From a virus: a DNA stretch of 29,598 bases. The notes under the pieces are model-generated. The model saw only the letters and a list, made by a program, of their open reading frames with translations, was not told the DNA's origin and searched no databases. A program made the translations under genes and the position numbers. Location: positions 1 through 29,598 of IMG/VR virus record IMGVR_UViG_3300026320_000022, one strand, 5' to 3'. This document shows, piece after piece, positions 18,923-22,237 of this stretch. How positions within the stretch are numbered: the first letter of the stretch is position 1; each line of letters begins with the position of its first letter.

Positions 18923-20569
18923 ATGTCTCTACCGACGCTCATTTGGCACATCTCATCGTCGGCGAATCCGGCTGGTCAAGGGCTAGACGGGAATAATTAC
19001 ATGATTCCGCTCCCCGACCCTGGGGCGGGTAATTGCATTGTCCTTGCATTGTCATTCCTCGTTGGCAACACGCCGACGATCACCGACAACAACGGCAACA
19101 CTTGGCCAGCAGCATCCGTGAGCGCGGGCGCTTTAGATACCGAGGCAGCAATCTTCGTCTTGAAAAATGCAAACGCGGGAAACTTCACGGTCACAATTGC
19201 TTTTTCGGCGCCTCTCCGTCCGCTTCAATACACGGCGAGCTGTTTCAACAACATCGACACGGCGAGTCCCGTCAACGGCACGAGCGCGACCGCAGACGTA
19301 CATGCTTCGGCAGGTTCGTTGACCACAGGCTCGTTCACACCGACCACCAACAACGATGCCAACGGCGGCAACATCATATGGAACTATTACGCGAGCGCCC
19401 AAGGTGGCGCGATCAGCAATCCGTCGAATTGGGTGAAAGGAACAAATTTCACTTTGCTGGATGCTGATAGAGCATGGACCAGCAACAATGGGTTTCCCCA
19501 TGCGTCGCAGTGGTTCATCCAGACCGCGTCGGCCGCGATCAATCCTGGTATCACAGCCACGGGTGAAACTGGAACAACTACTCTCTGGAACTGCGTGGCC
19601 GTCGCGCTCAAGGTGGCCACGGCCGGCACACCGAGCCAATCTGGTATCCGCATCAGAAAGATGATCCACCAGACCAACCAGTCGCCAGGACCATTCACTT
19701 TGGCGCTCCAGATGCCGGCAATTGGCAACCTCCGCGTGATAACCGACACGCTCGGTGACTCGAACATAGGTGCTATATCGGACAACGAGGGAGGGACTTG
19801 GTCGTCGGCGACGACCGGCGGTGCCAAGATTTGGTGGTCTGTGAACAAGTCCGCCAATCCCGATTTGGTCGTCAGCTTTCCGGTGCTTTCAGGCGTTGTC
19901 CCCAACTCGATACGGTTCTATGACATCTCAGGAGCGGCCGACGCTCCATTTGATGTTTCTGCGCTTGAGAACAGCACTAACGTTGGCGGAACGACATCCC
20001 TCACTCATGCGCCAGACATCACGCCGACAACGGCGAATGGCCTGGTAATCGCCTCGCTGGCCATCGGGCATGGCCCTGGTGCCACGGTAACCAGCCCTGC
20101 CGGAGCGATCTTCAGCCTAGTGACGTACATCACGCGCTTTACCGCATCGATCAATGGAACGGTGATGACGGTCCCGGTCAGTGGCGTCACTCAAGGCAAA
20201 CTTCAGGTCGGCTACACGGTCTTCGGGGCCGGCCTAACGGCGACTAACCCTACCATCTCATCGTTCGGTACCGGCACCGGTCTCGACGGCACTTACAATC
20301 TTTCCTCATCGCAAGGGACTATCGCTAGTGAGCAGATGACGGCCGGAGAGACCGACCTCGATCTTATGGAGAACGCCGACCTGGAGGGATATTTCTACAA
20401 CGCGGCGTCCGGGGCCATCCATTGGGATTGGACCTTCACTTTGATAGGATCAGCGGCCGCTGACAACGGCGTCAACGGAGTGGCTGTGGCTTTCAAGGCC
20501 GCGCCGGCCGGTGGTGCTCCCGCCGGGGTTCCCTTCGGTGTCCTGGGGATGGCATCATGTGACTGGTAG
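18923..20569 (+). CDS. Two-domain beta-rich surface protein, paralog family member 1
   Basis: This encodes 548 residues from ATG 18923, three bases after the previous stop. Two related domains can be seen: one ends near residue 230 with VAVALKVA, and the other near the C-terminus with VAVAFKAAP. Each has a TDNNGNTW- or SDNEGGTW-type turn near its start. The fold is probably a jelly-roll or lectin-like sandwich, rich in Asn, Ser, Thr and Gly. The last ten residues, GVLGMASCDW, match the ends of two neighbouring proteins. It lacks a signal peptide. A virion adhesin is likely; function is inferred. Confidence 0.6.
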   Translation: MSLPTLIWHISSSANPAGQGLDGNNYMIPLPDPGAGNCIVLALSFLVGNTPTITDNNGNTWPAASVSAGALDTEAAIFVLKNANAGNFTVTIAFSAPLRPLQYTASCFNNIDTASPVNGTSATADVHASAGSLTTGSFTPTTNNDANGGNIIWNYYASAQGGAISNPSNWVKGTNFTLLDADRAWTSNNGFPHASQWFIQTASAAINPGITATGETGTTTLWNCVAVALKVATAGTPSQSGIRIRKMIHQTNQSPGPFTLALQMPAIGNLRVITDTLGDSNIGAISDNEGGTWSSATTGGAKIWWSVNKSANPDLVVSFPVLSGVVPNSIRFYDISGAADAPFDVSALENSTNVGGTTSLTHAPDITPTTANGLVIASLAIGHGPGATVTSPAGAIFSLVTYITRFTASINGTVMTVPVSGVTQGKLQVGYTVFGAGLTATNPTISSFGTGTGLDGTYNLSSSQGTIASEQMTAGETDLDLMENADLEGYFYNAASGAIHWDWTFTLIGSAAADNGVNGVAVAFKAAPAGGAPAGVPFGVLGMASCDW

Positions 20570-20578
20570 GAGGAATGG

Positions 20579-21241
20579 TTGACCGATTGGACATTCATCC
20601 AAGGGGTCGTGAACACGGCTGGCGGGGTTACCACAGTCAATGAATCGTTCGCGTCAATCATCGTCAGCGGCGACATCGTGCTCGGTGCAGTGCTGCTGGA
20701 CGCGGGATTTACCCTGACGTCGGTCACGGATGACAAGAGCAATGCATACACGGTTTTCGATCCGCACGATGACGGCACCCTGTACACCGTCGCATTCAGA
20801 TCAAACGGTTTCCTGACCAACGGTCCCAAAATTCTGACTTTTAATTTCTCCGGTGCATCCGGCAATCAATGGATGGTGCAGGACGAGTTTCAGCCGTTCA
20901 CCGGGGCGACCGCCATCAGCGTCGACGGGTCGTCACAGACGTTCAACTCGGCGGGCACGTCGTTCGCCAGCTTCAACACCAGCTTGCCCGACGACCTCGT
21001 ATACGCGGTGGCGATGAGCAGCGGGACATCGACCCATGGTACGAGCTTCAATCTTGGCAGCGGTAACGGGACAGCACGGTGTTCTGAGTGGGGAATACAA
21101 GCTACGGCTGGGTCGGTGACGATGGACCTTGCGACGCAGACCAATCATTTCTGGGGCCCGGCGTTCGCCATCAACGGAGGTTCATCACCACCGGCATCGG
21201 CACCCAGCGGCATCGTCGGCGTCGTGACTTCAGAATGGTAG
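20579..21241 (+). CDS. Beta-rich surface protein, paralog family member 2
   Basis: This encodes 220 residues from TTG 20579, with AGGAGG five bases upstream deciding the start. It has one domain of the same kind as the gene before it (VTDDKSNAYTVFDPHDDGTL near the start, GPAFAINGG near the end), followed by a Pro/Ser linker and the C-terminal GIVGVVTSEW. It has no signal peptide. The family is unnamed to me; small adhesin or fibre component is the best guess. The divergence from the paralogs is large, so the duplication is old or under strong selection. Confidence 0.6.
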   Translation: MTDWTFIQGVVNTAGGVTTVNESFASIIVSGDIVLGAVLLDAGFTLTSVTDDKSNAYTVFDPHDDGTLYTVAFRSNGFLTNGPKILTFNFSGASGNQWMVQDEFQPFTGATAISVDGSSQTFNSAGTSFASFNTSLPDDLVYAVAMSSGTSTHGTSFNLGSGNGTARCSEWGIQATAGSVTMDLATQTNHFWGPAFAINGGSSPPASAPSGIVGVVTSEW

Positions 21242-21251
21242 GGCGGAATCA

Positions 21252-21551
21252 ATGGCCACAAGGTTCCTTGGGAGTTCCGATGGCTGCGTTGTGAATCTGA
21301 ACTACGATGCGATCCTTTTGGTCGCGACCGGCGTCTCGATTGACAATGCTCAGGGCATCGAAACGGTGACTTTCTGGATCGTGGTAGCTGGCGTGGTCAT
21401 GTCCAAAACCGTGGTCCAGGGCGCGACGGGCTCGATCGTGTTCCCGGTGACTATCGGTGTTACCGTGTCCGGCAGTTCTTTGTCCATGTCCACGGTCGGT
21501 TCTTATGGGATTGGCGCTGGCGTAGATATGGCCATTATAGGACTGCCCTGA
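21252..21551 (+). CDS. Small beta-rich protein of unknown function
   Basis: This encodes 99 residues from ATG 21252, with GGGCGGAA upstream. It is strongly hydrophobic and beta-forming (ETVTFWIVVAGVVMSKTVVQ, GSIVFPVTIGVTVSGSSLSM) but has no single membrane helix or signal peptide. Its stop overlaps the start of the next paralog (TGATG). It could be a small structural protein that packs with the beta-rich neighbours. No family is recognised. Confidence 0.5.
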   Translation: MATRFLGSSDGCVVNLNYDAILLVATGVSIDNAQGIETVTFWIVVAGVVMSKTVVQGATGSIVFPVTIGVTVSGSSLSMSTVGSYGIGAGVDMAIIGLP

Positions 21552-22237
21552 TGCCGACATTTGTCCAAAAAAACATATCTGCCGACGGCGGCTCGGGGAC
21601 GACAGTCACCGTCACCATTTCGGCGGGGGCGGCGGGGAATCTGATCTGCGGATCGGTCACATGGGCGGACCCGCAGACCCTGAGCAACGTTAAGGACAAC
21701 AATGGCGTCACTTACAACATCGTGGACAACCTGGACGATGCTGGCGACGCCAAGTCCATGGCTACGTTCTATCTTCCCAACATATCCGGCGCCCCGACTT
21801 CGATCATTGCCACGTTCAGCGCCAGCACCACAGGGACCAGGATCGAAGTGCAGGAGTGGTCTGGCGTGGTGACCACCACGCCGCTTGACGGTCACACCAT
21901 CCAGCAGACCAGCGGGGCGACCGTCTCATCGGGCAACATAACGACCACCGTTGACGGCGATCTGATTTATGGTTCATGCGACGCCGCTGGGGGAAGCGAC
22001 ACTACGCTGACTGTTGGCTCCGGGTTTACCATAGGAAACAACGGAAGCGGCGTTGGCCTCGTCATCTGCATGGCAGATGAGAGTCAGGTACAATCTGTCC
22101 ACGGGTCCATAGCGGCGACGTTCGGCTGCTCTCCTTCCACGGCAACGTGTCTTGTCGCGGTGATGGCGTTCAAGGCCGCGCCAACTGGTATCACGCCGAC
22201 GTATGGGATACTTGGGTTCGTGGAGGATGAGTGGTAG
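21551..22237 (+). CDS. Beta-rich surface protein, paralog family member 3
   Basis: This encodes 228 residues from ATG 21551 (TGATG overlap). It has a single domain with VKDNNGVTYNIVDNL near the start and VAVMAFKAAP near the end, the same signposts as in paralog 1, and then a short linker and the C-terminal GILGFVEDEW. Its Ser/Thr/Gly-rich beta composition fits an extracellular or virion surface protein. It has no signal peptide or catalytic motif. As with its paralogs, the role as an adhesin is inferred from composition, duplication and position beside spike genes. Confidence 0.6.
   Translation: MPTFVQKNISADGGSGTTVTVTISAGAAGNLICGSVTWADPQTLSNVKDNNGVTYNIVDNLDDAGDAKSMATFYLPNISGAPTSIIATFSASTTGTRIEVQEWSGVVTTTPLDGHTIQQTSGATVSSGNITTTVDGDLIYGSCDAAGGSDTTLTVGSGFTIGNNGSGVGLVICMADESQVQSVHGSIAATFGCSPSTATCLVAVMAFKAAPTGITPTYGILGFVEDEW

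Follow-up and report, generated by a model that had tools for sequence, protein, structure and literature searches.

Phage receptor-binding and display proteins usually keep a folded anchor, often at the N terminus, and swap the remainder of the protein. Hoc-like proteins carry variable Ig-like β-sandwich display domains attached via a conserved C-terminal element, and some phages encode two Hoc-like proteins that differ in their bodies but have one C-terminal binder in common (PMC10385173). In T5 pb10, a conserved capsid-binding part is joined by a proline-rich linker to a highly divergent Ig-like β-sandwich domain (PMC5292684). Phage L Dec depends on a C-terminal tail with no ordered structure in the free protein; the deletion result is cited in that source as unpublished (PMC7602432).

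The window, the whole 29,598-base stretch of an IMG/VR virus record of an uncultivated phage analyzed here, has phage head genes on its left, with the major head protein encoded at 8541 to 9557 (PHROG E value of 2e-71). A 1,037-amino-acid (aa) open reading frame (ORF) at 661 to 3774 contains a histidine-phosphatase-like stretch, recognized by eye, and also matches ParB-like and head-maturation-protease families.

To the right of these genes, the window encodes three paralogous proteins with divergent β-sandwich bodies and a common ten-residue C terminus. A conserved C-terminal element combined with variable β-sandwich bodies, found here with the help of one independent relative, is a likeness to T4 Hoc. 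However, the Hoc binder is a folded domain on the center of the gp23 hexamer, while the putative binder in proteins 1 to 3 is a peptide of ∼10 residues. No Hoc-like folded C-terminal capsid-binding domain was found in the model of protein 3, where the ∼20 residues after the last strand are too few, and no sequence relation of the three proteins to Hoc was detected. T5 pb10 shares the combination of binding element, linker, and divergent β-sandwich, but its binder is N terminal and helical, and pb10 is one gene rather than three paralogs. The tip of bacterial SSB, a short acidic-then-aromatic free C terminus that serves as a docking point for partners, offers an analogy alone, as protein and sequence are unrelated.

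Three β-sandwich proteins with a common C-terminal peptide

Protein 1 (18923 to 20569, plus strand; 548 aa) consists of two tandem β-sandwich units, an Ala/Gly/Pro linker, and the C-terminal peptide GVLGMASCDW (20537 to 20566), which forms part of the 13-residue terminal stretch VPFGVLGMASCDW (20528 to 20566). Protein 2 (20579 to 21241, plus strand; 220 aa) has one β-sandwich body, begins at a TTG codon, and ends in GIVGVVTSEW (21209 to 21238), and protein 3 (21551 to 22237, plus strand; 228 aa) has a β-sandwich body and ends in GILGFVEDEW (22205 to 22234). All three ends fit the pattern G-[VI]-[LV]-G-x4-[DE]-W, as reported in a preliminary description of this DNA, and the weak similarity it claimed for the remaining sequence was borne out by pairwise body identities of 19 to 29%. 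The first unit of protein 1 ends in NCVAVALKVA without the peptide, in agreement with the same description, and a 99-aa ORF between the protein 2 and protein 3 genes (21252 to 21551) ends in MAIIGLP and also lacks the motif. Proteins 1 and 2 share a frame, with a single TAG separating them, but stop codon readthrough from protein 1 into protein 2 was discounted on the basis of the good Shine-Dalgarno sequence (AGGAGG) upstream of the TTG start, and also because the protein 3 homolog of a close relative (G001, described below) ends in TGA; the window itself uses TAG, TGA, and TAA stops.

A degenerate codon pattern for the motif followed by a stop matched the window exactly three times, in each case at the stop of protein 1, 2, or 3, and none of 100 dinucleotide shuffles of the window reached three matches. 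In a pairwise comparison of the C-terminal 14 residues of every ORF in the window, the three motif pairs held ranks 1 to 3 among 465 pairs, with scores of 35, 30, and 29 and a next-best score of 23. Between the window and more distant phages, 5 of 5,363 C-terminus pairs scored at least 29, and all five represented one truly conserved end, that of the family of the upstream gene at 16715 to 18919. Pairwise C-terminus comparison inside other phages found no C termini common to paralogs.

The AF2 model of protein 3 is a double β-sandwich (pLDDT of 70) whose last strand ends at residue 207, with nothing reliable after residue 213 and a pLDDT below 50 for residues 214 to 228; the underlying alignment held 7 sequences, and the low-confidence tail is accordingly weak evidence of disorder. 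In this model, the peptide would lie outside the folded domain, beyond the last strand. The AF2 model of protein 1 was unusable (pLDDT of 32). The second unit of protein 1 contains an inserted module of ∼85 residues (about 399 to 488, with residues from about 403 to 488 encoded at 20129 to 20386, plus strand) that is absent from the G001 homolog and has similar stretches in other phage contigs.

A Foldseek comparison of protein 3 with BFVD gave a best, full-length match with an E value of 2.7e-13 and a TM score (TMq) of 0.76, and many phage minor tail proteins were among the matches. As modeled, protein 3 matches over its whole length the fold of a phage minor tail β-sandwich family (e.g., A0A6J5RV23 and proteins of mycobacteriophages Stubby and Tweety). 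The difference lies in the ends, as Tweety gp21 and a protein of Sinorhizobium phage phiN3 lack the peptide, the phiN3 tail containing Trp and ending in GGVWY. This phiN3 protein (L116, 41582 to 42316) likely belongs to the same fold family, is encoded near head genes, and carries the Trp-rich tail VWTGGAWKTCVVKVYIGGTWVTKTLKTRKGGVWY; tails with Trp may recur behind the β-sandwich domain. PDB Foldseek and VIA searches with protein 3 returned middling matches alone, with no clear PDB match, and no relative is claimed from them. PDB chains gave no sequence match, and no significant match to proteins 1 to 3 was found in Pfam or PHROGs, libraries that may lack a model for so divergent a group.

The protein 1 terminus in a close relative

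IMGVR_UViG_3300012202_000008 (G001), a close relative from IMG/VR, is about 92% identical to the window at the DNA level over 12471 to 18807 and 20546 to 22238, with a short additional match at 18872 to 18917 (87%). No DNA match to G001 was found over 18918 to 20545, which covers the whole protein 1 body, and protein 1 and its G001 homolog are 38% identical at the protein level. Their last 13 residues, VPFGVLGMASCDW in the window and VPFGVIGMASCDW in G001, agree at 12 of 13 positions (VPFGV[LI]GMASCDW); at 38% identity, the probability of at least 12 of 13 matches is 8e-5. A second contig, G002, is 99.98% identical to G001 over their overlap, and the swap is thus represented by one independent relative (n = 1).

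Within VPFGVLG, 6 of 6 codons for identical amino acids differ synonymously between the window and G001, which argues for selection on the peptide at the protein level rather than for a mere copied flank. For comparison, synonymous codon differences amount to 20% in protein 2, 11% in protein 3, and 13% in the upstream gene, versus 60% in the protein 1 body. The upstream half of the peptide appears to have about the silent-site divergence of the body with its amino acids kept, and no other evidence speaks as strongly for a function of the peptide as this codon pattern. The MASCDW codons are closer to the flank (2 of 6 differ), and DNA homology between the two genomes restarts at 20546, inside the peptide; the seam may fall within these codons. 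Homology then ends at 22238, one base past the protein 3 stop codon. The protein 1 bodies of the window and G001 may also be sisters (82/82 support), in which case the tag could have been inherited from their common ancestor and kept by ordinary selection, rather than being an adaptor for swapped bodies.

Beyond protein 3, positions 22239 to 24857 of the window take the place of 386 bases of G001. This segment encodes a 309-aa protein, a glycosyltransferase-like ORF identified by eye (23213 to 23947), and a methyltransferase-like ORF (23958 to 24566), which lie between protein 3 and a repeat protein.

Distribution of the peptide and of the protein 1 body

The preliminary description had proposed a search for this C terminus in other proteins. 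Pattern scans of IMG/VR for the motif followed by a stop gave 9 matches in one scan and at least 30 in a scan for TAA and TGA ends. Among the matches listed, credible long ORFs with the motif occurred in this lineage only, and matches outside the lineage were very short or out-of-context frames, apart from two kinds of longer frame that were also discarded. One, a recurrent frame of 225 to 234 aa with the motif, was seen in five contigs and, truncated, in a sixth, and it runs antisense to a longer credible ORF; the other, of 102 aa, overlaps a frame of 490 aa. A search of 84,980 bacterial and archaeal genomes yielded no relative of protein 3, and tblastn searches of INPHARED phage records with proteins 1 and 3 gave no match.

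A profile search with protein 1 revealed five more contigs with a related body (32 to 41% identity). Apart from a few accessory genes, the rest of their gene content shows little or no resemblance to the window. The peptide is absent from all five of these distant relatives, which have other tails or none and end in AGAIHLKAP, HIPPPKMIMIT, LLPHQNWM, ATAIAFQ, and KSNWFGGFPGHQ. Two of them, in L091 (5782 to 7365) and L095 (5785 to 7386), have classical-looking N-terminal Sec signal peptides and no C-terminal tail, and a tail of some kind is present in 5 of 5 protein 1 family members without a signal peptide (the window, G001, L092, L093, and L096), a split that was noticed post hoc and would arise by chance 1 time in 21. 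The L091 and L095 products look exported rather than virion bound, and this post hoc pattern suggests two uses of one body, export in some proteins and attachment in others.

The upstream gene at 16715 to 18919 has a signal-peptide-like start, and its product ends in AKAR[FW]DAGTPFVQP, a terminus kept with small changes in four of the five phages with distant protein 1 relatives. This C terminus appears to track its protein, whereas the tag of proteins 1 to 3 appears to track the phage lineage and not the body, which is what a partner-specific docking tag predicts.

Homologs of the upstream gene in L092, L093, L106, L108, L112, and L114 have nearly invariant ends and bodies 34 to 42% identical, and they adjoin or stand near protein 1 homologs in several otherwise unrelated phages. 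Farther upstream in the window, an ORF at 15238 to 16107 contains a signal-peptide-like stretch and a proline run, and the ORF that follows it (16056 to 16718) contains a pair of ∼85-residue repeats; the second repeat has a match in G008 with 59% identity.

Fused homologs and candidate partners

In three contigs (L005 to L007), a protein 3 homolog that is 74% identical runs past the counterpart of the peptide. Its linker is followed by RGFVYSEWQKW and then by a Trp/Pro-rich repeat region of over 300 residues, with GFVYSEW at the position of GFVEDEW in protein 3. The earlier proposal that the motif belongs to true C termini consequently holds for the ends of proteins 1 to 3 and fails in these three related contigs, where the counterpart is internal. 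As judged from the fused sequences, either the tag works internally too or it would be the remnant of a longer tail.

The window encodes a separate Trp/Pro-rich repeat protein (24553 to 27057, plus strand; 834 aa) with GWEIPPFQPPHPRPE-type repeats. In G001 and G002, this protein is 96% identical over residues 100 to 834, and its N-terminal part differs. The G001 homolog of the gene starts about 29 bases downstream of protein 3. The products of neighboring genes that are fused elsewhere often interact, and because this gene is adjacent to protein 3 in G001 and such repeats are fused to protein 3 in other contigs, its product is a candidate partner of the tag. Homology of the fused repeats with the repeats at 24553 to 27057 was considered and dropped, as no significant alignment was obtained. 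A further candidate partner is the tail-spike-like protein encoded at 27058 to 28671 (plus strand), whose gene matches G001 DNA over the first ∼42 codons, at the N-terminal end, and not beyond. This protein fits the ordinary arrangement of a conserved N-terminal anchor with a variable remainder.

Possible roles of the C-terminal peptide

The peptide in proteins 1 to 3 appears to be real, selected, and lineage specific, and docking is a plausible and partly supported role for it. On balance, we lean toward the explanation that the ten-residue end is a lineage-specific docking tag binding one common partner of the same phage. The docking signal put forward in the preliminary description stands insofar as the peptide lies outside the modeled fold, was kept during the body swap, and is absent from the same body elsewhere; the capsid, a fiber base, and a sorting machine are candidate partners in that description.

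According to the docking explanation, proteins 1 to 3 would be minor-tail- or decoration-type β-sandwich modules for display or adhesion, carried on a short flexible Ala/Gly/Pro-rich linker. The tag would present a Gly-hydrophobic-hydrophobic-Gly segment, then an acidic residue and a C-terminal Trp with its free carboxylate, and would bind one partner that this phage itself encodes, probably a virion component. Bodies would be free to diverge or be exchanged, with attachment retained via the tag. Our inferences are binding by the tag, a virion partner common to the three proteins, and a role of the bodies as surface adhesins.

Three rival explanations appear less well supported than docking. 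Self-assembly is fairly unlikely, with the peptide promoting oligomerization or folding, for instance as a β-strand that is exchanged between chains and closes a homotrimer of these β-sandwich proteins. The Gly-hydrophobic-hydrophobic-Gly-hydrophobic run is strand-like, the disordered C-terminal tail of phage L Dec folds only upon trimerization at the capsid (PMC7602432), and a monomer AF2 model cannot reveal such a role; however, relatives with the same body and no peptide imply that the fold can generally form without it, and one peptide on three divergent bodies suits a common external partner better. The complementary occurrence of signal peptides and tails in the protein 1 family, along with the signal-peptide-like start of the upstream gene, could also point to a C-terminal signal for export or sorting that the host recognizes and that stands in for a Sec signal peptide. 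This is quite improbable, as a signal for a host machine should recur widely, whereas the IMG/VR matches listed place the motif on credible long ORFs of this lineage alone, and the tails of the remaining protein 1 relatives are entirely unlike one another.

The fused homologs in L005 to L007 and the closely spaced repeat gene of G001 are what a relic would leave if the peptide were the stump of a longer Trp/Pro-rich tail, and the limits of DNA homology, which resumes within the peptide and is lost where the protein 3 gene ends, would fit a recombination seam kept by exchange of gene ends. Either form of relic is unlikely. It would be surprising for a stump to keep an unvarying spacing and a final Trp in all three paralogs, and the two sets of repeats do not align significantly, while a seam should show the low synonymous divergence of its flank and not the completely altered codons of VPFGVLG.

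If docking is correct, the peptide could, as a tentative extension, act as a transferable ten-residue address tag, such that any β-sandwich adhesin acquiring it would load onto the same virion site, and display proteins could be exchanged and multiplied with the partner unchanged. A short C-terminal tag common to several paralogs, if true, would be a simpler, portable attachment code. Such a tag would help assign anonymous phage proteins to virions and is a possible display handle on particles.
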